DNA from: Spirochaetes bacterium GWB1_36_13 | Lineage (GTDB): Bacteria > Spirochaetota > GWB1-36-13 | Direction of reading: 5' to 3' | DNA length: 36,765 nt | NCBI GenBank assembly: GCA_001829155.1 | Contig: MIAO01000151.1 | Coordinates: 1 to 36,765, forward strand | Position numbers and translations under genes: made by a program | Shown: positions 3,358 through 35,823 of the stretch, piece by piece | Numbering within the stretch: position 1 is the stretch's first letter | Layout of the letters: each line of letters opens with the position of its first letter | The notes under the pieces: generated by a model | What the model saw: the letters and a program-made list of their open reading frames with translations, nothing else | Told to the model about the DNA's origin: nothing | Databases searched by the model: none

Positions 3358-4062
3358 TTAAGCCTCAATTTTTTGAAGAGCTTCTGTCTCGGTTGCAAAA
3401 TAAGGAATAATTTCAAAAATTTCGAACATATCAAAAGTTTCATAGAGATTTTTAGAAAGATTGGTCAGGCAGATTTTCTTATTCATAGATTTTAAGGTAT
3501 CATGAATAGAAAGGAGAATCCCAAATCCCCGGCTATACACTGTTTTCAGTTGAGCACAATTCACAACCACATTCTGTATTTTACTTTCTTCCACATGCCC
3601 CATAATACTTTTATGAACCTTGTTGACTGCTTCCATGTTGAGAAAACCAGAGAGATTGAAAACGGATGTTTGAGCGTTTATTTGTTTTAATTCAATGTCA
3701 AAACGCTGGTTAAAATGGTTGATTGCCTGCTCCTCATATTTAAAATAGGGGATAATATCAAAAATTTCAAGCAGCTCAAAAGTTTTATAAACAGAAGGAG
3801 GAAGATTGCAAAGACAAAGTTCCCCTTTTTTTTCCTTGATTTTGTCATGAATAGAAATAATAGTACCGATTCCTTTACTGCATACAAATGAAAGATTTTC
3901 ACAATTGAAAATCACAAAAAGCTTTTTATCTCCCATCTCATCAAAAAGAGTGAAAGCTTTTTGAATAAAATAGTCGATTGTATCGACTTTAAGCTGCCCT
4001 TGAAGAGAGAGGACAAGGATTTCATTATTGATCAGGTTTTTTGATATTCTGATTTCTGCCAT
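3358..4062 (-). CDS. Tandem double-STAS domain protein
   Basis: 234 aa made of two consecutive STAS domains (about 1-118 and 119-234), the fold of anti-sigma factor antagonists such as SpoIIAA and RsbV. Each half repeats the same landmarks: a hydrophobic strand, then FVCSKGIGTIISIHD (first) or VYSRGFGILLSIHD (second), then a helix-strand end with EIFDIIPYF or EIFEIIPYF. In SpoIIAA the phosphorylated Ser immediately precedes the Gly of DSSGLG; here that position is Lys63 and Arg178, so neither half should be phosphorylatable there. The start ATG has AGAGGT upstream. The gene follows the RsbW-like ATPase by 9 bases and is probably co-transcribed, making a partner-switch module likely. Confidence 0.85.
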   Translation of the reverse strand: MAEIRISKNLINNEILVLSLQGQLKVDTIDYFIQKAFTLFDEMGDKKLFVIFNCENLSFVCSKGIGTIISIHDKIKEKKGELCLCNLPPSVYKTFELLEIFDIIPYFKYEEQAINHFNQRFDIELKQINAQTSVFNLSGFLNMEAVNKVHKSIMGHVEESKIQNVVVNCAQLKTVYSRGFGILLSIHDTLKSMNKKICLTNLSKNLYETFDMFEIFEIIPYFATETEALQKIEA

Positions 4063-4071
4063 ACCGTACCT

Positions 4072-4470
4072 CTATTGAAAATTCTTTTTTAACATGAGTT
4101 TGTTGCCTTTTTCGTTGTAACCGACTTGAGAGGAATATTTTTTCATCAGAAAAACTCCTCTGCCGTTATATGCTTTTGTATTGGTTTTTTCCTGGGTCAT
4201 TTTTTCTTTCCAGTTAAAACCCGTTCCTTCATCTTCAACCATCAAAACAAAACTTTTATTTTCATAAGAAAGATCAACCGTTATTTTCTTGGTTTCATCG
4301 TATTTATTTCCATGTTCTAAAGCATTGTAAAGGGATTCATTCAAAAGAATCGAGATAATGTAAACATCAGGAGGCATGTTATCAACAGTTCCGCCCATCT
4401 CTGCGACGACATCGGCGATGAATTTTGATACTGCTTCAATGCTTGATTTAATGACGGCTCTTTTTTTCAT
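4072..4470 (-). CDS. RsbW/SpoIIAB-like ATP-binding regulator
   Basis: 132 aa comprising a single GHKL ATPase domain of the anti-sigma/serine kinase type. The N box (LLNESLYNALEHGNK, residues ~42-56), the G1 box (VEDEGTGFNW, ~78-87) and the G2 box (GRGVFLMKKYSSQVGY, ~103-118) are all present. RsbW-type proteins bind either a sigma factor or a STAS partner and can phosphorylate the STAS protein. Here the adjacent double-STAS protein lacks the usual Ser at both sites, so a binding-only interaction or another partner is possible. It lies 68 bases after the outer-membrane barrel gene on the same strand, so read-through from the sigma operon is possible. Confidence 0.85.
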   Translation of the reverse strand: MKKRAVIKSSIEAVSKFIADVVAEMGGTVDNMPPDVYIISILLNESLYNALEHGNKYDETKKITVDLSYENKSFVLMVEDEGTGFNWKEKMTQEKTNTKAYNGRGVFLMKKYSSQVGYNEKGNKLMLKKNFQ

Positions 4471-4538: not shown

Positions 4539-5636
4539 TTAAAATAAAAATCCGATTCCTGCGCTGATTTTTTTGAGAAGCGCATCGTAAAGCTCATCGT
4601 TGGATTGATTTTTCTGAACAGCGGCCGAAAAATTCAGGTAGCAGGATTCAGAAAAATAGTATTTAAGCCTTAAGGTCAGATAAAAGGAAAGAATAGAAAG
4701 TTTTTCAGATAAAACAGGATTTCCAGAAGCGTCATAGGGATACCGTCCGTCATAATTCTCTCCTGTAAATCCTGTAGAAAAAATAATCTTCCAGTCTTTC
4801 GGGTTCCATTCGATAGAAAAAGCCCCTTCACTCACCAGCGTGTTGTAGTAATTCTTGAATATAACCTCATCCCCATCCAGAATCAGGGTTGTTTCAGAAG
4901 GACCGAAAAAAAGATCATTGCCGTCAGAAAAATAATTTTCAAGTTTCGCCTTCAATGAAAAAGTGATGAAAGAAGAAAGGTAGTAGTCCCAGGTAAAAGA
5001 ACCCCCGGCTTTGTTTCTGATTATTTTTTCCGAAGTTGACTGATAAGAAGAGTTAAAAATATATTTTTCAGTAAAAAAATCTTTCTCAAAGTTCAAATTT
5101 AAAGTGATTTTATGAGAGAGAGAAGGTGCAATTTCTGTTTTGATAGAGAAAGAGGCGTAATATTGATCGTAATCACTTTTAGAAAATAAATACCGCCCTC
5201 CATCTATTCCGAGAGCAAATACCATAAAATCAAAGTCACTTCTGTATTCGGGGTTGAAAAACACTTTCAGAAAAGTCCGGGATGAATCGTTCCACAAATT
5301 GTCATAAAATCCTCCCAATGTCAAATCCAGAGTATTTTCTTCTCCTTTAAGACGGTATTTCAGTTTTAAATTTCCGCTGAAATTGTCTTCTTCCTTTACA
5401 GAAAAGTATTTATCTAAAAAGAAATTTCCTTCCAGAAAAACAACACTGGATTCCCCCTGTACCGAAGCATGCCTGAATGACCAGAAAGAAGAAAGGATAA
5501 AACTCTCCTGATGATTTGAGTCTTCAAAAACATTTGAATCATAAGCGCTTTCTATTCCCAGATCGCTGTAGAAGGAAAATACAGCGGATTGAAAAAAAAC
5601 AAGGAAAAGAAAAATAATTTTTGCCGTTTGATTCAT
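4539..5636 (-). CDS. Predicted outer-membrane beta-barrel protein
   Basis: 365 aa with an N-terminal signal peptide (about MNQTAKIIFLFLVFFQSAVFS) followed by NVFEDSNHQ and then many alternating hydrophobic/polar strands rich in Tyr, Phe and Ser (for example FSLKAKLENYFSDG, FYLTLRLKYYFSES), ending in AGIGFLF. A terminal Phe after a beta strand is the usual C-terminal signal of BAM-inserted outer-membrane proteins. No enzymatic motif is visible; porin, adhesin or channel roles are all open. It is the last gene of the five-gene sigma operon, 13 bases after its upstream neighbour, with a strong ribosome site (AAGGAGAA). Confidence 0.75.
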   Translation of the reverse strand: MNQTAKIIFLFLVFFQSAVFSFYSDLGIESAYDSNVFEDSNHQESFILSSFWSFRHASVQGESSVVFLEGNFFLDKYFSVKEEDNFSGNLKLKYRLKGEENTLDLTLGGFYDNLWNDSSRTFLKVFFNPEYRSDFDFMVFALGIDGGRYLFSKSDYDQYYASFSIKTEIAPSLSHKITLNLNFEKDFFTEKYIFNSSYQSTSEKIIRNKAGGSFTWDYYLSSFITFSLKAKLENYFSDGNDLFFGPSETTLILDGDEVIFKNYYNTLVSEGAFSIEWNPKDWKIIFSTGFTGENYDGRYPYDASGNPVLSEKLSILSFYLTLRLKYYFSESCYLNFSAAVQKNQSNDELYDALLKKISAGIGFLF

Positions 5637-5649
5637 AGAGGATTCTCCT

Positions 5650-6312
5650 TTATTCTATTTCTTTTAACAAATCTTCAATCTGTCTTGGATTTTTCTTTTT
5701 TAAAACTGCTTTCATAAGCACTTGAGAGGCTTTTTGAGTATTTATTTTTTTATCTCTTAAACTGCTTAGAATACCGATCAGGCGTTTCAGATAGTCTTCG
5801 TCCGGATTTGCACGAAAGACCGCCAGAGCAATTTCGGTGATTTCATTTTGATGAAAGGGTATTGCAATCTGATCTTCATAGGAAAGATAGAAATAAATCA
5901 TTTTTGAAAGCTGTTCCTGAAAAGAATCAGAGGTTAGATTGAAAAGAATTTTTTCTATCTGAGCGATGGTGAATTTATTTCTGATCAGAAAAAAGACATT
6001 GTCCAGAAGAAGAATGTCTTTTATTTTATATTTCAGGCTGATTTCATCAATGAAAAGAAGATTTTTCTTTTCTTTTTTAATAAAAAGCAAAAGCTGTCCG
6101 GCAGGGACTTTTTTGATTGAAGCTTCTTTGATGATTTTCAAGAGGAGCTTTTGAGCGCCTTCGTTTTTCAATTCTTTTTCTAGAGTGTGAATTTCAGCCG
6201 CACTGTTCCCTAAAAAACTGTCATAGTCGCTTAAGTTTTCTCCTTGCGCCTCTGTATAAAAAGCGAAAAAAAGAAATAAAAGAAAAATTAAAATTTTCTT
6301 TTGAGTTTTCAA
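5650..6312 (-). CDS. Exported helical protein, operon member (unknown)
   Basis: 220 aa starting at TTG (AGGA about 6 bases upstream). A clear signal peptide (KKILIFLLFLFFAFYTEAQG) is followed by an almost wholly alpha-helical, Lys- and Leu-rich body with no recognisable catalytic motif. I do not recognise the family. Repeated helix-turn-helix hairpins such as NKFTIAQIEKILFNL suggest a solenoid-like scaffold. It sits 12 bases downstream of another exported helical protein and directly before the barrel protein, so a periplasmic adaptor role in the same system is a reasonable but untested guess. Confidence 0.6.
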   Translation of the reverse strand: MKTQKKILIFLLFLFFAFYTEAQGENLSDYDSFLGNSAAEIHTLEKELKNEGAQKLLLKIIKEASIKKVPAGQLLLFIKKEKKNLLFIDEISLKYKIKDILLLDNVFFLIRNKFTIAQIEKILFNLTSDSFQEQLSKMIYFYLSYEDQIAIPFHQNEITEIALAVFRANPDEDYLKRLIGILSSLRDKKINTQKASQVLMKAVLKKKNPRQIEDLLKEIE

Positions 6313-6324
6313 GTTTTTCCTGCC

Positions 6325-6906
6325 TTAGTTATTTCCATTCCCGGTCTGGGAAGAGCCTGCCCCTGTGTTGGGTTTTGCTGTTCCAGCCCTTTGTTTGTCG
6401 GTCATCCCTTTCTTTTTCATTTCTCTTGACATTTTATCTTTTTTATCACTGCTCCCATTCTCTGCAAGGGCTTTTTTCAGCTGGTTTTTCAAAGCATTTT
6501 TCACTTCATTCTGCAATGTTTTGGATGAATTTTTTTCCCCCTTTTCAGACTGGAAAACCTCTATCCCCTTTTTGACCGCCGCCAGAGTCTGATTTCTGGA
6601 TTCCTGTTTAAAATAACCGTAAGACCGCATCTGCTCGTAGTTTTTTTCGGCTTCTTCAAGAACAGCAAGAGATTCTGCCCCTTTTATTTTCTTCTGGAGA
6701 CAGGTTTCTATAATCTCTTGTATCAATTTTTTGTCATATTTCTGGTTTTTCCTGAGTCGGGCAAGATAGTGATCGAGGGAAGCATTTGCCTGAATCTCAA
6801 GTTTTTCCTGAAGCATGGTTTTGATTTCCTGCATTTCTTTTTCTTTTGCAAAAAGAAATGAAGAAATGAACATGAAAAAAAACATTAATTTGATAAAGCT
6901 TTTCAT
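6325..6906 (-). CDS. Exported helical protein with low-complexity tail (unknown)
   Basis: The track starts at 6936; I choose ATG 6906 because GAGGAGGA lies just upstream and a proper signal peptide follows (MKSFIKLMFFFMFISSFLFA). This gives 193 aa. The mature part is helical and highly charged (EIKTMLQEKLEIQ, LARLRKNQKYDKKLIQEI) and ends in a disordered Gly/Ser/Asn tail (TGAGSSQTGNGNN). No known domain is recognised. It is the third gene of the sigma operon, 16 bases after the CBM48 membrane protein. The tail could be a flexible linker to a partner or to the cell surface. Confidence 0.6.
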   Translation of the reverse strand: MKSFIKLMFFFMFISSFLFAKEKEMQEIKTMLQEKLEIQANASLDHYLARLRKNQKYDKKLIQEIIETCLQKKIKGAESLAVLEEAEKNYEQMRSYGYFKQESRNQTLAAVKKGIEVFQSEKGEKNSSKTLQNEVKNALKNQLKKALAENGSSDKKDKMSREMKKKGMTDKQRAGTAKPNTGAGSSQTGNGNN

Positions 6907-6922
6907 AGGCTCCTCCTCTCCT

Positions 6923-7384
6923 TTACTTAAAAACAACCAGAATCGAATTTTTATTGCCGAAATAGTCTTTTGCCCCCAGACTGTTTTTATCTTCCACTAC
7001 TTCATCATCTACCACCAGAGTGTAATGATAAATCACTTTCATCTTGACCACCAGATCCAGCGCCCACTTTCCGTCTTTGTATTCCAGCTTTTGTTTTTCC
7101 CAGTTATTGAAATCGCCCATGACAAACACTTTTTGATCAGGGGAGCCTTCGTAGCTGATTGAAGCCAGAGTTTCATCCGGCAGGAGACGGGAAGAAAAAG
7201 GGTTTTGAAAGAAGAAAAAACTCCCCAGCGCCAGAAGAAAAAGAAAACTCAAAACCAGTTTAAGCTGAAAATATTTTCTTTTTTCTTTTTTTCTTCTTAT
7301 TTTTCTGACGACTTTGTCTGAAAAATTTTCAGGAACATCAATTTCTTCAGAATATAATTTTTTAAGAAAATCCTGCATTTTCAT
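6923..7384 (-). CDS. Membrane-anchored putative anti-sigma factor with CBM48 domain
   Basis: 153 aa in three parts: a short cytoplasmic region (residues 1-40, basic near the membrane), one transmembrane helix (about 41-59, LKLVLSFLFLLALGSFFFF), and an exported C-terminal early-set domain (about 80-153) of the glycogen-binding/CBM48 type. The domain is recognised by VFVMGDFNNW, a WALDLVV strand, the YHYTLVVDDE strand and the closing FGNKNSILVV. One ligand-facing Trp usual in this family (in DGEWxxDP) is Val here. Ten bases separate it from the ECF sigma gene, and the position and topology match a transmembrane anti-sigma factor. No zinc-binding His/Cys motif is seen in the cytoplasmic part, so sigma binding is inferred from context. 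Confidence 0.72.
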   Translation of the reverse strand: MKMQDFLKKLYSEEIDVPENFSDKVVRKIRRKKEKRKYFQLKLVLSFLFLLALGSFFFFQNPFSSRLLPDETLASISYEGSPDQKVFVMGDFNNWEKQKLEYKDGKWALDLVVKMKVIYHYTLVVDDEVVEDKNSLGAKDYFGNKNSILVVFK

Positions 7385-7393
7385 ATCCTTATC

Positions 7394-7960
7394 CTATTCA
7401 AAAAAAAGTTTCCATCTCTCGTTTTCTGAAAGACTGATTTTCAATTTTTCCCTAGCCCTTTTTAATTTTGACTTGACCGTATTTTCACTTTCTTCCATAA
7501 TTTCAGCTATTTCAGTGGTGGAAAGATTTTCAGTATAATAAAGAACCAGAATAATCTGATACTTGACAGGGAGTGTTTTAATTTCTTTCCACAGCCAGAG
7601 TTTTATTTCCTCTTCTTCCAGATTGCCTTTTTTTTCTTCTGTTTCAACAATCTCTTCAAATAAAGGAAAAAAATTCTTAATTTTTTCTTTTCTTAACAAT
7701 TTTTTTGCTTTATTGACTGTGAGGGTGTAAAGCCAGTTTAAAAAAGAATAATCGGGATTGTAACGGTCGAGTTTTTCATAGATAGTCATAAAAACCTCCT
7801 GCGCTGCATCTTCGATCATAGATCTGTCTTTAAAATAAAAAAACTTGTGGAGGATTCGAAAGACCAGTTTTTCGTATTTTTTCACCAGTATGCCGAAATC
7901 ATCAGGGCTTCCTCCGTTTAAAAGGGCAAAGATAATCTCTTTATCTTCTTTCAGGCTCAA
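7394..7960 (-). CDS. ECF-type RNA polymerase sigma factor
   Basis: 188 aa with the two-domain ECF layout. Region 2 (about 18-90) contains FGILVKKYEKLVFRILHKFF, IEDAAQEVFMTIYEKLD and FLNWLYTLTVNKAKKLLR; region 4 (about 128-178) contains LPVKYQIILVLYYTENLSTTEIAEIM and the recognition helix ENTVKSKLKRAREKL. It starts at TTG with AAAGGA 8 bases upstream. It is the first gene of a five-gene minus-strand operon whose second gene encodes the likely membrane anti-sigma factor, so the operon is probably autoregulated. An intrinsic terminator of the preceding gene ends only about 27 bases upstream, so its promoter must overlap that element. Confidence 0.9.
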   Translation of the reverse strand: MSLKEDKEIIFALLNGGSPDDFGILVKKYEKLVFRILHKFFYFKDRSMIEDAAQEVFMTIYEKLDRYNPDYSFLNWLYTLTVNKAKKLLRKEKIKNFFPLFEEIVETEEKKGNLEEEEIKLWLWKEIKTLPVKYQIILVLYYTENLSTTEIAEIMEESENTVKSKLKRAREKLKISLSENERWKLFFE

Positions 7961-7987: not shown

Positions 7988-8014
7988 AAAAAAGGAAGAA
8001 TAAATCTTCCTTTT
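7988..8014 (-). terminator. Intrinsic terminator of the DUF4382-like gene
   Basis: On the minus strand AAAAGGAAGA pairs with TCTTCCTTTT around a 5-base loop, followed by a T run. It lies between the lipoprotein gene stop and the sigma factor start, separating two minus-strand units. Confidence 0.7.
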
Positions 8015-8028
8015 CCCTCTTTTTCTTT

Positions 8029-8820
8029 TTACTGAGTCAGTGTTACTCCGGCAGTTCCGGTAATGTCCAGAGTCTGTCCGGCTGTGACTGTTTTGTCGGC
8101 AATGTCATAAGCCTGATAAGTATCGGCTTCTATTTTGATATCATAAACCCCCGGTTCCAGATATCCTAAAAGGAAAGTACCGTCTGACTGAGCCACTGTC
8201 GCGGTTACAGCAGTTGTCTCACCGTCTTTGAAAGCGCTGACGACAATTTTAGGAGTAGAAGCATCGGGTACTGCAATTTTTCCAGAGAGGGCGCCGGTTG
8301 TGTTTTTCTGAACAATCCGGGTTACGGGAGTCATTCGGTAAACCCCATTGGTAACTGTCAGAGAGTGGGCAACATTGAAATCTACGATCAGCTCGGTGGT
8401 GATTCCTTCAGTCAGGTCAAACGCTTTGGTCAGTTTGACAGTGTTTGAATTGAGGGTGGCATCCTGCCGGGAGTTGTCATTTAAAATAACCCAGCTGGAA
8501 TTGACGGCAAACCTGATCTGCGCATAATGACCGGGAGTGAGAGAAGCAACGCCCAGATCCTGAAGAGCGGCATTGGTGAGAGCCAGAAGATTCACAGTTC
8601 CTCCGTCTGCAGACAGATTGACCCATCCTGTGTCGCTGGATGAAGTGGAAACGGAGACTGTGTCAAAGTTGATCCAGACTTCCTTTACATTGGAAAGGTC
8701 TGAGGGAGCGTCTGTGATAGACACTTTCAGGGTAGCATCGGAAACGGGAGTGTCTTTCTTACAACTGATGAGTGATAAGACAACACTCAAAATGACCAGC
8801 AGTTTAACAATGGTTTTCAT
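8029..8820 (-). CDS. DUF4382-like lipoprotein with C-terminal carboxypeptidase-regulatory-like domain
   Basis: 263 aa. A lipoprotein signal (VKLLVILSVVLSLISC, with Cys at +1) is followed by a domain resembling DUF4382 (about 28-175: LKVSITDAPSDLSNVKEVWI, LTPGHYAQIRFAV, FDLTEGITTELIVDFNV) and then a beta-sandwich of the carboxypeptidase-regulatory type (about 175-263: GALSGKIAVP, GTFLLGYLEPGVYDIKIEA). Such proteins are predicted surface or periplasmic lipoproteins of unknown role. The gene is visibly richer in G+C and in Thr, Val and Ser than its Lys/Phe-rich neighbours, which may reflect acquisition or expression-related codon bias. It has a good ribosome site (AAGGAG) and its own terminator. 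Confidence 0.82.
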   Translation of the reverse strand: MKTIVKLLVILSVVLSLISCKKDTPVSDATLKVSITDAPSDLSNVKEVWINFDTVSVSTSSSDTGWVNLSADGGTVNLLALTNAALQDLGVASLTPGHYAQIRFAVNSSWVILNDNSRQDATLNSNTVKLTKAFDLTEGITTELIVDFNVAHSLTVTNGVYRMTPVTRIVQKNTTGALSGKIAVPDASTPKIVVSAFKDGETTAVTATVAQSDGTFLLGYLEPGVYDIKIEADTYQAYDIADKTVTAGQTLDITGTAGVTLTQ

Positions 8821-9250: not shown

Positions 9251-12200
9251 ATGGATTTTCAAGGTTATTCTATTTATAAAAATTACCAGATTTCAAAAAA
9301 ACTGGATGAAGGGGCTATGAGCTCGGTCTGGATAGCGGAAAACCCCGATCTGACAATTCCTTTTATTGCTGTAAAAATATTAAACAAAAACACCACTTCT
9401 TCCCGGATAGAAAATGTGATCCGTTTTAAAAACGAAGCAATGACCGTCTCAAAACTCCATCATCCCAACATCATAAAAATACTTGAAATCGGGGAAATCA
9501 ATGATCAGCTTTACATTGCCTCAGAATATATTGAAGGGAAAAGCCTTAAAAAACATTTGGAAGAAACCTCTTTCCCTATTGACGAAAGTATTGAAATAAT
9601 TCATCAGATCGCCTCTGCATTAACTTATATTCACAGCCATCATATTATTCACAAAGATTTAAAACCCGGCAATATCATGCTGACTCATCAAAAACTCCCG
9701 GAAGAAGAAAACAAGATCAAGGTTAAAATCATTGATTTTGGATTATCCGATGTAAAAGAACTTTCACGGTTTACGGACAAACAGGAAGTTGCCGGAACTT
9801 TCTACTATATGTCGCCGGAGCAAACGGGCATCGTGAAATACGCAATAGACGAAAGAAGCGATCTTTATTCGCTGGGCGCCTTGTTTTATGAGTTATTGAC
9901 GGGAACCCCTCCTTTTACGGGCAAAGAGGCGGGGAGCGTTATTCATCAGCACATTGCCAGAAAACCTATGAAGCCAAGAGAAATCAAAGCGGAGATTCCT
10001 GAAATTCTGGAAAAAATTGTTTTAAAACTTCTGGAAAAAGAGCCTGAAAAAAGGTATCAAAGCGCAGAGTATCTTTTAAAAGATCTCGAAAAGACCAAAA
10101 ATGGGGAGACAGATTTTATTCCCGGCGGTGAAGAAAAAATTGTCAAACTCAACTATCACGCTCCGCTGATTGGAAGAGAAAAGGAAATCAACGCTTTATC
10201 TCTCAGTATCGAAAAAATCCTTGAAAACAAGGGATGCTTTTACCTTGTCAACGGTGAAACAGGAACGGGAAAAACAAGACTTATTCAGGAAATACAGGAT
10301 AAAATCTATGGGACATACGCTTTTATTGATATTAAATGTTTTCTGGAACACAGCAAAATATCCTATGGAATTTTTAAAGATATCCTGAACTTTTATCTGA
10401 AAAGGTTTGAAACCTATCCGGATGAAAAAAAAGATATTTACCGTAAAAAGATTAAGGAAATCACAAAAGAATGCGGCGCTCTTATCTTACAGTTGAATCC
10501 AATGATGAGCGAATTTGTGGAAAAACCTAATGAACTCGTGGAACTGGACAAGGAACAGGAAAAAAAAAGGTTTATCTTTTTACTGGCTGATTTTTTTAAA
10601 CAACTTGCCAACCTTGAGATTCAAAAAGGCTTCTTTGTATTTATTGATGATATTCAATGGACAGATAGAGGCAGTTGGGAACTTTTAGAACTTTTTCTTG
10701 AAAATATTTCCCGCTATCCTATTTTTATTCTGGCAGCCTGCCGTCCTTCCGAAATTGCAGAAAATCATTTTATCCGCCCTTTTTTAGACAAAATATCTTA
10801 TTTAAACCATCCTTATTATAAAATTGATTTGAAAAATCTGGATGAGGAAGAAAATCTGGAATTGGTTTCCTCCCTTCTTTATCAAACAGAAGATAAAACC
10901 AGAGTTCTGGCTGATTTTCTTTATCAGAAAAGCATGGGAAACCCATTTCTTTCTATTGAGATTTTAAAGCAGATGGTCAGCGACCATATTGTCTTTTTCA
11001 AGGAAAACGACTGGTTTTTTGATTCTCAGAAAACTGAAAAAAACTCTATCCCTTTATCCGTCATTGAAATTTTTTTAAACAGAATCAACAAGCTGAATGA
11101 AAACGAAAAAATGATTATCGCATCCGCTTCAGTTTTTGGAAGAATGTTTGAAATGCAAGATTTTTTTGAGTTCAATGAAGGCATGCATCAAAAAATTGTA
11201 GAAACCATCGACAAAAGTATTCAGCTTCAGCTTATTGAGAAAAGCGAACAAAACCCTGGAACCTTTGTTTTTATCCATGATAAAATACAAAATTATTTTT
11301 ATTTTCTTCTGAGTAACGAACAGCAGAAAGCTTTTCATTTAAAGATTGCCGCTCTTCTTGAAAGGAAAAACCCTTTTTTAACCGAAGAAAATTTGTTTAG
11401 GGTACTGGAACACTATATCAAAGGGGAAAATGAAGAAAAGATATTGGAATATTCTTTTAAAGCAGGTCTTTCGGCAAAAAATCTTTTTATCCATGAAAAA
11501 GCCCTCCGTTATCTTTTTCTCAGCCAGAAATTGCTTAAAAAAAGGGGATTTGAAGGAAAAAAAGAATGGCTTGAAACTTCTGAAAATATTGGAGAAATTT
11601 ATCTAATTATCGGGAAAGTCGATCAAGCGCTTGCCGTTTATCAGGAAATCCTTTTATTCAAAAAAACAACTTATGAAAAAGCGGCTATTTATCAGAAACT
11701 GAGTTTTGCCTATTTTAAAAAAGGAGACCCTGTCTCATCTGAAAAATTTGCGCATATGAGTCTGGCATTACTGAAAGAACGATGCCCTAAAACAAAAATT
11801 GTATTTTTCATCAAACTGGTGAAAGAACTTTTTTTCTACGGCTTGATTTCCATCCTGCCGGATTTTCTTTTGAAAAAGACCATAAGAAACAGGGCAGTAA
11901 ACTGCCTGAAAGTCTGGAATTACTATACGCTGGATCTTATCTATGCTTTTAACAGCCTGTTTAAATATTCTTACACTATTTTAAGATCCCTGAACATCTC
12001 CAAAAGAATTGGCCAGTCATCCGAACTTGCTTTGACCCTGAATTCTTATTCCGGTTTTTTCTTAAACTTTTCTTTTTTTAAAAAAGCTCTTTCATATAAT
12101 ATAAAAGCCATGGAAATACAGAAAAAACTTAAAAATCAATGGGGCATTGCCAGAACACACCAGACTATCGGCTTTATTTATCAGTATCAGGCAGAATATG

Positions 12201-15200
12201 ACAAAAGTATTGAAAGTTTATCCAAAAGCATTGAGATATTCGAAAAAATAGGGGATTTAAGGGAGCTGGGAATTTCTTTGTATCTGCTTTCCCAGAATTA
12301 TTACTATGCCGGTGATTATAAAAAATCTTCAGAAATCAATACCCGCTACATGGAACTTTTTAATCAGACAAAAGATAATTACGGCATCAGCGGATCTCTT
12401 GCGGGGCTTGCCAAAGTGGCAATTGAAAAAGGAAGCCTGGATGAAGCGGAAGGCTTTATTCAGACTGGATTAGAATTAAGCGAGGAAAACCAGCTCTGGT
12501 ATGTTTATTCGGCTTTGAATATGGAGCAGGGGGTTCTTTTTTTAAAAAAGGGAGAACCTGTTCAGGCTTTAAACTATCTGGAAAAAGCAAAAGAAATTTA
12601 TTATAGCAAGAGATTTTTCAAACCCAATATCAGTTTAATTTTTCCTCTTTTTTCTGAAGCGTATCTTCTCGATTTTCAGGAAAAATCTTTTTCTCTCTCC
12701 TTGAAAGAAAAAAAACACTACCTTCATAAAATCAAAAAATCAGTACGGACAGCCTTAAAAAAAACAAGGCAATGGCATAATTTTTACAGCATCAGTTTAA
12801 GATCCGCTGCAAAATACTACCAAATGATCGGAAAAACCAAAAAAGCTGAAAAAATGTTCTTGAAAACCATTCAATGGAATGAAAAAATCAACCGGAAATA
12901 CGAGCTTGCTTTAAGTTATTACGAATACGGGAATTTTCTCGCATTTGCCTCCAGAGCGAAGGAAGCAAAGCGTTTCTGGGAAAAAAGTTATTTTCTGTTT
13001 CAGAAAATGGAGATTGATTTTTATTTAAAAAAGCTGAATATTCTTTTGGGTATCAACAATGAAGACTCCCTTCCTATTGAAAGATTGATTAACAAAAATA
13101 AGCTTCATACGATTATCAAAGCAAACTATGAGATCAGCGCCACTTTGAACCTGAATATTCTTCTGGAAAAAATTCTTGATCTGGCCATGGAAATCACGGG
13201 CTCCCAGAAAGGAATCCTTTTGTTGAAAAACATTGAATCAGAAAAACTGGAAGTCTCTGTCAACCGCAATATTTATCATGACGATCCCCTGAAAGAAGAG
13301 TTTTCCAGCAGTATCATTGAAAAGGTCTTTTCCGAAGGAGAAGCCTTAATTACAACCAACGCCTGCTCTGAAAAAAAATATCTTTATCAAAGCGTGTTAA
13401 ACTATGGACTCAAATCGATCTTGTGCTCACCCATTAAATACAAAAATGAAATCTTCGGGGTCTGCTATCTGGACAACCCTCTGGCAAAAGGCGTTTTCAC
13501 AATGGATGACAGGGAGCTTTTAAATGTTCTGATGACCCAGGCCGCAATATCGATTGAAAATGCCCGCCTCTACCAGTATGCGATTCTGGATACCCTCACC
13601 CAGCTGGTAACAAGAAAACATTTTTACTTCCTTCTTCAGAAAGAAATCAGCCGGACCCTGCGCTATCAGGCTTTTTTCGCCCTATTGATCATCGATCTGG
13701 ATGATTTAAAATATTTAAACGAGAATTATGGCAATGAAGCTGGCGATGAAGCAATCAGGGCTGTTGCAAAAATCATACGGGAAAGCTGCCGCAATACCGA
13801 TACTCCGGCAAGATTCGGCGGAGAACAATTTGCCGTTATCCTTCCGGAAACCAATTTGAAGGGAGCCGAGATTCTGGCCGGAAGAATCGTAAAAAAAATC
13901 GAAAACCAGAAAATAGACTATCAGGGCTATAGTCTAAAAACAAGCGCAAGCATCGGCATATCTTTGTTCCCCTATCATGCCTCCAATCAGGAGACATTGA
14001 TAAAAACAGCGGAAGAAGCGCTTTGTGTTTCTAAAAAAGGAGGAAAAAGCAAAGTCAGCGTCTATGAAAAAAAATCAGACACAACTCCTGCTTTTATTTG
14101 TGAACCTTCAAACTCTCATTCAATTTTAAATGAAGATAAAATAAAATCAATTTTTGAAACAACCCATGAAATCAGCTCTTTTATTCACCTTGAACACCTT
14201 TTGGATAAAGTGATCAGCATAGCTGTAGAAACAACCGGAGCTGAAAGAGGATTCCTTATGCTGGAAGACGAGGTTAAGGGAGAGCTTCAGATTGCGGCGC
14301 ATAAAAACATTAACAAAATAAATGAAAAATTTTACTCTCAAAGGATCGTGGAAGAAGTTTTCAAAACAGGGAACATTGTTCTTACAACCGACGCTGAAAA
14401 CGACTCGGTTTATAAAAAGTTCGACAGTGTTGTTTCCAACAAGCTGAAATCAGTGCTCTGCGTTCCAATTCTTTATAAAAGAGACATTAAAGGAGTTTGT
14501 TATCTGGATCATCCTTACGATACGGCTGTTTTTAAAAAAGAAGATATCAGTATCCTGAATGTTTTGATGACTCAAACAGCCGTTTCGATCGAAAACACCC
14601 GTCTTTATAAAATTCAAATGCTGGAAACAGAAAAAAAATATTTGGAAAAAATCAACAGCCTGAAAAACGAATTTCTGGGAATCGTCAGCCATGATCTGCG
14701 CTCCCCCATCGGAAAGATTCAGATGCTGTCAAGCTATATCATCAATAACCAAAATATTATTTCTAAAGAAGACAGCCATGAGTTTCTTTCTGACATAAAA
14801 AGCACAAGCCAGTTTATTCTTAATCTGATTGAAGATCTTTTGGATATTTCAAAAATCGAGATGGGGCACTTGGAACTTTGTAAATTCGATATCCCGGCAG
14901 AAAATTTGATTCAACAAATTATTCTTTTCAATCAAGCAGTTGCAAAAAATAAAACCATTTCCATTGTTTCCAAGATTGAATCAGGAGTCGAAGTCATTCA
15001 TGCGGATGAAGCGAGGATCAAACAAGTCTGCAATAATTTACTCAATAATGCTTTGAAATTTTCTCTCCCTCACTCAAAAATCACTATTCAGGTCAGCAGA
15101 AAAGAAGACAGCCTTCTTTTTCAATTTATCGATCAGGGTCCTGGAATTCCCGAAGCAGAAATAAGCAAACTCTTCCAGAAAGAATTTTACCAGACAAGCG

Positions 15201-15340
15201 TGAAATCTACTGATGGAGAAAAAGGAACAGGACTGGGGCTTTCCATTGTCAAAAAAATCGTTGAACTCCATGGAGGGCAAGTAGGAGTTGAGAGTCAGAT
15301 CGGAAAAGGCTCAAATTTCTATTTTACTCTGCCTCTCTAA
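9251..15340 (+). CDS. Giant Ser/Thr kinase-AAA-TPR-GAF-GGDEF-GAF-histidine kinase
   Basis: A 2029-aa cytoplasmic signalling protein with no transmembrane segment. Order: Ser/Thr kinase (about 8-285; AVKIL lysine, HKDLKPGN at ~134, DFG, MSPEQTG; glycine loop degenerate as EGAMSSV); AAA/STAND-type ATPase (about 305-620; Walker A GETGTGKT ~334, Walker B FVFIDDIQW ~464); TPR-like helical repeats (about 690-1270); GAF (about 1290-1440); GGDEF (about 1450-1610; RNTDTPARFGGEQF has an RxxD inhibitory site and GGEQF); second GAF (about 1640-1785); HisKA with SHDLRSP (~1813) and HATPase with DQGPGIP and GTGLGLSIVKKI (~1992). Trifunctional kinase/ATPase/histidine-kinase proteins are known from cyanobacteria and others; the inserted GGDEF adds predicted c-di-GMP synthesis. 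The ribosome site is AAGGA and a strong terminator follows. It is a single-gene unit. Confidence 0.93.
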   Translation: MDFQGYSIYKNYQISKKLDEGAMSSVWIAENPDLTIPFIAVKILNKNTTSSRIENVIRFKNEAMTVSKLHHPNIIKILEIGEINDQLYIASEYIEGKSLKKHLEETSFPIDESIEIIHQIASALTYIHSHHIIHKDLKPGNIMLTHQKLPEEENKIKVKIIDFGLSDVKELSRFTDKQEVAGTFYYMSPEQTGIVKYAIDERSDLYSLGALFYELLTGTPPFTGKEAGSVIHQHIARKPMKPREIKAEIPEILEKIVLKLLEKEPEKRYQSAEYLLKDLEKTKNGETDFIPGGEEKIVKLNYHAPLIGREKEINALSLSIEKILENKGCFYLVNGETGTGKTRLIQEIQDKIYGTYAFIDIKCFLEHSKISYGIFKDILNFYLKRFETYPDEKKDIYRKKIKEITKECGALILQLNPMMSEFVEKPNELVELDKEQEKKRFIFLLADFFKQLANLEIQKGFFVFIDDIQWTDRGSWELLELFLENISRYPIFILAACRPSEIAENHFIRPFLDKISYLNHPYYKIDLKNLDEEENLELVSSLLYQTEDKTRVLADFLYQKSMGNPFLSIEILKQMVSDHIVFFKENDWFFDSQKTEKNSIPLSVIEIFLNRINKLNENEKMIIASASVFGRMFEMQDFFEFNEGMHQKIVETIDKSIQLQLIEKSEQNPGTFVFIHDKIQNYFYFLLSNEQQKAFHLKIAALLERKNPFLTEENLFRVLEHYIKGENEEKILEYSFKAGLSAKNLFIHEKALRYLFLSQKLLKKRGFEGKKEWLETSENIGEIYLIIGKVDQALAVYQEILLFKKTTYEKAAIYQKLSFAYFKKGDPVSSEKFAHMSLALLKERCPKTKIVFFIKLVKELFFYGLISILPDFLLKKTIRNRAVNCLKVWNYYTLDLIYAFNSLFKYSYTILRSLNISKRIGQSSELALTLNSYSGFFLNFSFFKKALSYNIKAMEIQKKLKNQWGIARTHQTIGFIYQYQAEYDKSIESLSKSIEIFEKIGDLRELGISLYLLSQNYYYAGDYKKSSEINTRYMELFNQTKDNYGISGSLAGLAKVAIEKGSLDEAEGFIQTGLELSEENQLWYVYSALNMEQGVLFLKKGEPVQALNYLEKAKEIYYSKRFFKPNISLIFPLFSEAYLLDFQEKSFSLSLKEKKHYLHKIKKSVRTALKKTRQWHNFYSISLRSAAKYYQMIGKTKKAEKMFLKTIQWNEKINRKYELALSYYEYGNFLAFASRAKEAKRFWEKSYFLFQKMEIDFYLKKLNILLGINNEDSLPIERLINKNKLHTIIKANYEISATLNLNILLEKILDLAMEITGSQKGILLLKNIESEKLEVSVNRNIYHDDPLKEEFSSSIIEKVFSEGEALITTNACSEKKYLYQSVLNYGLKSILCSPIKYKNEIFGVCYLDNPLAKGVFTMDDRELLNVLMTQAAISIENARLYQYAILDTLTQLVTRKHFYFLLQKEISRTLRYQAFFALLIIDLDDLKYLNENYGNEAGDEAIRAVAKIIRESCRNTDTPARFGGEQFAVILPETNLKGAEILAGRIVKKIENQKIDYQGYSLKTSASIGISLFPYHASNQETLIKTAEEALCVSKKGGKSKVSVYEKKSDTTPAFICEPSNSHSILNEDKIKSIFETTHEISSFIHLEHLLDKVISIAVETTGAERGFLMLEDEVKGELQIAAHKNINKINEKFYSQRIVEEVFKTGNIVLTTDAENDSVYKKFDSVVSNKLKSVLCVPILYKRDIKGVCYLDHPYDTAVFKKEDISILNVLMTQTAVSIENTRLYKIQMLETEKKYLEKINSLKNEFLGIVSHDLRSPIGKIQMLSSYIINNQNIISKEDSHEFLSDIKSTSQFILNLIEDLLDISKIEMGHLELCKFDIPAENLIQQIILFNQAVAKNKTISIVSKIESGVEVIHADEARIKQVCNNLLNNALKFSLPHSKITIQVSRKEDSLLFQFIDQGPGIPEAEISKLFQKEFYQTSVKSTDGEKGTGLGLSIVKKIVELHGGQVGVESQIGKGSNFYFTLPL

Positions 15341-35334: not shown

Positions 35335-35436
35335 AAATGAATTATACTGAAATATCGGTTGGTGGATTTTGAAAAATAAACTTTCTCTATCAATTAGATG
35401 GGTAATAAAATTTGTATAGAAATAAAGGAGCCTGAT

Positions 35437-35823
35437 ATGAAATTCTTTTTCTTTTTTCTGATTTCCGTCTTTTGTTTTTCCTGCCAGCCTTCTGTGAAAC
35501 CGGCTGCAGATTCAAAAGAAGTTAAAAAGAATGCCCCGGTTGTTGAAAAAACTTCCGAAAAACAGTATTCTTTTACCTATAAAGGAGAAGCGAAATCTGT
35601 TTTTCTGACCGGAAACTTTAATAAATGGTCTGTCGATCATCCTGAATACAAGATGACTGAGAAAGAAAAAAACGAATGGATAATAACGGTACCGGAATCT
35701 CTTTTAATAAAAGGAAAAAACGAATATAAATTTGTAGCGGACAGCGAATGGAAGATTAATCCTGAAATTCAGTCGGAAGAATCGGGTCTTTCAGGGAAAA
35801 TCAATATTCTTGTGATTCAATGA
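35437..35823 (+). CDS. CBM48/AMPK-type glycogen-binding-fold lipoprotein
   Basis: 128 aa from ATG 35437, chosen over 35398 because AAAGGAG lies just upstream and a lipoprotein signal follows at once (MKFFFFFLISVFCFSC; a relaxed lipobox with Cys at +1). After a charged linker, residues ~45-128 form a single early-set domain of the AMPK/CBM48 type: SVFLTGNFNKW, EWIITVPE, KNEYKFVADSEWKINPE, INILVIQ. Both family Trp positions (NKW and SEW) are kept, unlike the anti-sigma version at 6923. Carbohydrate binding or a structural role is possible. It overlaps prmC by ATGA and may be driven by a sigma-28-like promoter shared with the flagellin intergenic region. Confidence 0.8.
   Translation: MKFFFFFLISVFCFSCQPSVKPAADSKEVKKNAPVVEKTSEKQYSFTYKGEAKSVFLTGNFNKWSVDHPEYKMTEKEKNEWIITVPESLLIKGKNEYKFVADSEWKINPEIQSEESGLSGKINILVIQ

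Follow-up and report, generated by a model that had tools for sequence, protein, structure and literature searches.

A CBM48 membrane protein beside an extracytoplasmic function sigma factor: a likely regulatory switch of an envelope module in Spirochaetota and Bacteroidota

Introduction

What does a domain of carbohydrate-binding type do on a membrane protein that is encoded directly behind a sigma factor? The question is raised by five minus-strand genes (positions 4539-7960, successive gaps of 9, 16, 12 and 13 bases) in a stretch of 36,765 nucleotides from Spirochaetes bacterium GWB1_36_13 (contig MIAO01000151.1, positions 1-36,765), which is called the window below and to which as a whole the coordinates refer. 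The genes code for an extracytoplasmic function (ECF) sigma factor, a single-pass membrane protein with a CBM48 domain, two exported helical proteins (1 and 2) and a probable outer-membrane beta barrel. A first-pass annotation had proposed this gene set as a carbohydrate- or envelope-responsive switch that controls its own secretion or surface complex. Order, strand and gaps of 9-16 bases as well as the sigma and CBM48 domain matches were borne out; the set was, however, incomplete, as an adjacent DUF4382 lipoprotein gene had been omitted.

As a whole, the locus is likely a switch composed of an ECF sigma factor and a membrane anti-sigma factor. That it stands for a hitherto undescribed class of ECF systems that sense the envelope in Spirochaetota and Bacteroidota, with a CBM48 domain turned protein sensor, a new helical partner and a near-private regulon including DUF4382 lipoproteins, is put forward tentatively, as a proposal that falls somewhat short of probable.

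Recurrence of the sigma factor/CBM48 pair

The sigma factor of the window matches Sigma70_r2 (7e-14, residues 25-93) and Sigma70_r4_2 (1.8e-15, residues 122-173) and no other domain, and this restriction to regions 2 and 4, joined by a linker of less than about 50 residues, is the composition of an ECF sigma factor. Sixty genomes were sampled as relatives, with FlaA, a family of the spirochaete flagellar sheath, found in 59 of them and in the window genome and in 0 of 14 controls; the window genome is thereby assigned to Spirochaetota. Among these relatives, the complete gene set occurs in the same order in genome G001 (locus L037), and variants occur in G032, G035, G021 and G011. Further loci were sought with a profile of ten sigma-linked CBM48 proteins against 296 genomes and with a profile of thirty against 393 genomes; in the second search full-length matches scored at least 105 bits and the remainder, mostly CBM48 only, at most about 100 bits. 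The pair of sigma factor and transmembrane CBM48 protein was found in 35 other Spirochaetota loci and six Bacteroidota loci, a recurrence which argues that the arrangement is more than chance.

An ECF sigma gene lies directly upstream in all 26 loci with a transmembrane CBM48 protein that had not been picked for a sigma neighbour (16/16 in a first batch and 10/10 in a second, which includes L180, a truncated lower-scoring match); the sigma frame is split in two assemblies and cut by the contig end in one. Co-occurrence in other genomes, on which the first-pass annotation had beforehand staked its reading, was thus found without exception. Loci with CBM48 only had no sigma neighbour (0/13). Outside the phylum, the pair was present in six of 148 Bacteroidota genomes, each time with the ECF sigma gene directly upstream (6/6), and a plasmid search returned free CBM48 proteins, none of them adjoining an ECF sigma gene in the four annotated regions examined. 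A tree of the sigma factors neither supported nor contradicted a single origin of the CBM48-linked ones.

Two candidates were discarded. One Bacteroidota sigma factor, retrieved by a contig scan with the sigma query alone, lies outside any module and was set aside. Equally, a link to TP0092/TP0093 of Treponema pallidum was dropped, the sole CBM48 match of the small genome G055 being distant and situated in a frame of 490 amino acids.

The CBM48 membrane protein as a candidate anti-sigma factor

The product of the second gene belongs to the Pfam family AMPK1_CBM (5.4e-8) and has one transmembrane segment, residues 41-59, with nine lysine or arginine residues among the 15 residues before it versus one among the 15 after it. 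This positive-inside bias places the N-terminus in the cytoplasm and the CBM48 domain in the periplasm. Adjoining an ECF sigma gene at a gap of 9 bases and N-in single-pass, the protein has the layout of a class I anti-sigma factor.

Hx3Cx2C, the accepted zinc signature of class I anti-sigma domains (ASDI), occurs in about half of the ASDI proteins. It is found in the cytoplasmic part of at least nine Spirochaetota homologues of the CBM48 protein (L088, L089, L091, L092, L171-L174 and L178), one of which, L091, gives a weak zf-HC2 match (0.002, under the Pfam cut-off). Published work on ASDI, which makes use of this signature, describes groups that mix zinc and zinc-less members (PMC7406223), a mixture which the CBM48 family shares; on the other hand, the window copy is short and zinc-less, and a periplasmic CBM48 is unmentioned for ASDI in the openly searchable literature. 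For the CBM48 protein family the anti-sigma reading thus appears well supported. For the copy in the window, with its short cytoplasmic part and no zinc signature, we infer the anti-sigma role from the homologues and from gene position.

Could the CBM48 membrane protein alternatively be an envelope protein that merely shares an operon with an otherwise regulated sigma factor? The short N-terminus of the window copy and its lack of a detectable anti-sigma domain would fit, but the invariant place right after the sigma gene, the N-in topology and Hx3Cx2C in at least nine members make this quite improbable.

The ligand of the CBM48 domain

Alignment of 42 sigma-linked CBM48 domains with AMPK-beta, the numbering of which is used here, allows inspection of W100, K126, W133 and N150, which we take to be the glucan-contacting residues of the AMPK-beta CBM48. 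The likeness lies in the common Pfam family and in W100, the equivalent of which is present in 42/42 domains; the difference lies in K126, retained in 0/42, and in W133, retained in 26/42 and lost in 16/42 including the window, while N150 is found in 19/42. The window domain keeps W100 and N150, has lost K126 and W133, and does not show the residues of a glycogen-binding CBM48. A lysine at the K126 position is retained in 13 of about 21 other CBM48 domains of the phylum, and lysine or arginine in 6/6 barrel-fused Bacteroidota domains. The sigma-linked CBM48 has probably changed its ligand, as judged from these residues.

A protein partner is the preferred reading of the ligand, with glycan sensing a live rival. 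In the rival, an alpha-glucan or periplasmic oligosaccharide would be the ligand of the periplasmic CBM48, and its binding would release the sigma factor, as with RsgI of cellulolytic clostridia, by which anti-sigma factors with a carbohydrate-binding module are known (PMC12203970, PMC6056542). The domain is, indeed, a genuine CBM48 with the residues retained as counted above. The loss of K126 from all sigma-linked domains, set against its frequent retention elsewhere in the phylum, the additional loss of W133 in the window and the fact that the modules inspected share no recurrent glycan enzyme or transporter nevertheless render a carbohydrate sensor unlikely.

A second CBM48 protein of the window, encoded at 35398-35823 on the plus strand just before a PrmC-type methyltransferase gene, is a lipoprotein candidate. 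It has no sigma link and keeps the glucan lysine and the second tryptophan.

Helical protein 2 and the barrel

If the partner is a protein, the same operon offers candidates. For the window copies of the two helical proteins, Pfam and NCBIfam gave no accepted match. The family of helical protein 2, in which the alignment reveals a conserved EGxxKxVP motif, is present in 41/42 loci, the missing one being cut by the contig end. Among the 60 relatives and the genome itself, the ten module genomes each carry a single copy of it, located at the module, and the others none apart from one weak match (3e-5); as the profile was built from most of the module sequences, presence is expected and the absence elsewhere is the informative part. 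Helical protein 2 is a near-invariant third component of the module, and its role as direct partner of the CBM48 domain is given less than an even chance.

Compared with helical protein 2, both helical protein 1 and the barrel vary more in their presence; of the Spirochaetota loci, about half gave no detectable barrel. The window copy of the barrel alone has no match in domain searches; its homologues match OMP_b-brl (7e-5), BBP2_2 (7e-4) and a designed transmembrane barrel in the PDB (1.4e-3). With a signal peptide and a C-terminus ending in GFLF, thus with a terminal phenylalanine, the product is a probable outer-membrane beta barrel, a call made by way of the homologues. Single-sequence AlphaFold models were unusable, with a mean predicted local distance difference test score (pLDDT) of 33 for the barrel and 50 for helical protein 2.

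Bacteroidota module barrels (L147-L152) have a C-terminal CBM48 domain of their own which, unlike the anti-sigma CBM48, carries lysine or arginine at the glucan-binding position (6/6).

The barrel itself might be the sensor, an outer-membrane receptor which signals across the periplasm to the CBM48 of the anti-sigma factor as FecA does to FecR. This is consistent with a barrel in the operon at many loci and with the C-terminal, hence periplasmic, position of CBM48 in the six Bacteroidota barrels; the patchy detection of the barrel in Spirochaetota next to a nearly constant helical protein 2, together with domain searches that found no TonB plug or signalling domain, makes such a receptor a doubtful explanation.

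Promoters and the DUF4382 lipoprotein

Autoregulated ECF promoters carry AAC at -35 and CGT at -10. GTAAC-N16-CGT was found upstream of the sigma gene in 7/27 non-redundant loci and in none for spacers of 12-15 or 17-20, with a mean of 0.05 and a maximum of 1 in shuffled controls; the N16 spacing had been noticed before counting, but it stands out clearly against all the others. Other forms of ECF promoter gave weaker or chance-level signals. In three whole Bacteroidota genomes GTAACC-N13-STCGTC has nine matches, eight of which lie within the module locus and precede the sigma gene, in G400 a helical gene, and DUF4382 genes, one of them a second copy in tandem in G357; before a DUF4382 gene, the ECF promoter is found in L147, L149 and L151. 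With the pattern reversed as a control, these three genomes still yielded six matches, so that the position of the matches, not their number, is what counts. The ninth match, outside the module, precedes a large lipoprotein gene of genome G357 (L167 4623-6350, minus strand), a possible further sigma target.

The DUF4382 gene lies directly upstream of the sigma gene and is the sole copy in the genome. Rare in the phylum (5 of about 60 genomes), DUF4382 is nonetheless a neighbour of the module not only in the window but also in L176-L179, where it is divergent, and in 6/6 Bacteroidota loci. The DUF4382 lipoprotein belongs to the module. A hairpin between the two genes suggests separate transcripts in the window; scans of the region for sigma-70 promoters and terminators gave near shuffled counts.

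Proposed mechanism

The sigma factor would be kept at the inner membrane by the cytoplasmic part of the CBM48 protein, taken as an anti-sigma domain of class I type, with zinc binding in some relatives and none in the window. The periplasmic CBM48, its canonical glucan site gone, would most likely read the state of envelope partners from the same operon, above all helical protein 2. A change in partner state would inactivate the anti-sigma factor, perhaps by regulated proteolysis, which is possible given a site-2 protease family in the genome, though as the family is present in all controls the support is unspecific. The released sigma factor would then turn on the module to which it belongs as well as the neighbouring gene for the DUF4382 lipoprotein. 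What the analysis shows is a conserved set of genes, the membrane topology and, among relatives, the zinc signature and ECF promoters; the binding of sigma, the part played by helical protein 2, the release and a like promoter logic in the window genome are what we infer.

Co-occurrence, relatives of the CBM48 protein with the zinc anti-sigma signature and ECF promoters in relatives make it likely that the switch governs its own envelope module. This part of the first-pass annotation stands; its carbohydrate trigger is not supported, as K126 is lost throughout the sigma-linked domains and W133 in the window as well. Several observations weigh against the proposed switch. The window CBM48 protein has a short N-terminus without Hx3Cx2C and without an anti-sigma domain recognised in the Pfam search. 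The retention of W100 in all sigma-linked domains and of W133 in 26 leaves room for some sugar binding, and the link between CBM48 and helical protein 2 is one of co-occurrence. Finally, GTAAC-N16-CGT is missing in 20/27 loci, and in the window it does not rise above chance.

Relation to known systems

The gene order of sigma factor, single-pass anti-sigma factor and exported periplasmic partner, with autoregulation and envelope targets, is reminiscent of RpoE-RseA-RseB of Escherichia coli. There is, however, no RseA or RseB domain match, the periplasmic part is a CBM48, the partner is helical and the regulon seems almost private, and the likeness to rpoE-rseA-rseB is one of layout, not homology. 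Sigma-I/RsgI of Clostridium thermocellum equally possesses an anti-sigma factor with an extracytoplasmic domain of carbohydrate-binding type, but the present system combines an ECF instead of a sigma-I factor with a Gram-negative-type envelope, a CBM48 without the glucan lysine and a module without glycan-degrading genes; Pfam and NCBIfam searches gave no match to the RsgI anti-sigma domain in the module proteins. With FecI-FecR-FecA the locus shares an ECF sigma factor, a membrane regulator and an outer-membrane barrel, whereas its CBM48 protein has no FecR domain and its barrel no plug or signalling domain of a TonB-dependent receptor.

In the openly searchable full-text literature, no description was found of an ECF sigma factor or anti-sigma factor with CBM48, or of DUF4382 in such a role; the group may have an earlier mention in subscription papers or in the main ECF classification. 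As far as searched, the parts are of known kinds and their combination is new. Orphan families, namely the helical proteins, the barrel family and the DUF4382 lipoproteins, are hereby tied into one testable circuit common to two phyla, among them the spirochaetes. Within this circuit, a fold known as a classic binder of sugars may now serve to sense envelope proteins. Relatives offer a defined promoter together with a regulon that is nearly private, and the circuit could be rebuilt from them in a laboratory strain.

Gene layout and neighbouring genes

Positions are collected in Table 1. The start of helical protein 1 is taken as the ATG at 6906, which the gap of 16 bases assumes; the program-listed start is a TTG at 6936.

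Table 1. Positions of the module features in the window, with the basis of each assignment
Feature	Position	Strand	Basis
DUF4382 lipoprotein, probable regulon member	8029-8820	-	Pfam PF14321 4.7e-23; lipobox LISC, DUF4382, carboxypeptidase-regulatory-like domain
Probable terminator hairpin between DUF4382 and sigma genes	7990-8014		10-pair stem; weak, such scans giving about shuffled counts
ECF sigma factor, TTG start	7394-7960	-	Pfam; NCBIfam TIGR02937 1.8e-29
Membrane anti-sigma candidate	6923-7384	-	CBM48 match, topology, homologues with Hx3Cx2C
Predicted cytoplasmic part, residues 1-40	7384-7265		
Predicted transmembrane segment, residues 41-59	7264-7208		
Predicted periplasmic CBM48, residues 84-151	7135-6932		
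Exported helical protein 1	6325-6906	-	Charged; C-terminus G/N/Q-rich; homologues in about 13/42 loci
Exported helical protein 2 (EGxxKxVP family)	5650-6312	-	Family in 41/42 loci
Probable outer-membrane beta barrel	4539-5636	-	Homologue matches and alignment; GPxET-LxxDGDE segment conserved among near relatives

On the same strand, the barrel gene is followed by an RsbW-like HATPase gene and a double-STAS gene (3358-4470, minus strand). Behind the barrel gene, a terminator-like hairpin is seen only downstream of this pair. In G001, the genome with the same order, the barrel is not followed by the pair, which may have no connection with the module or have been added locally. On the plus strand, 9251-15340 codes for a protein of 2029 amino acids in which, from the translation only, a Ser/Thr kinase is followed by ATPase, repeat, GAF, GGDEF and histidine-kinase-like parts.

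Module forms vary among spirochaetes. In one family, the short form of the module is flanked by a pair of small exported proteins that resemble each other at the C-terminus (L041 6054-6455 and L042 5586-6047), and in another a second short CBM48 protein is encoded between the anti-sigma and helical genes (L040 6226-6567, L087 5456-5812 and L093 5744-6082).

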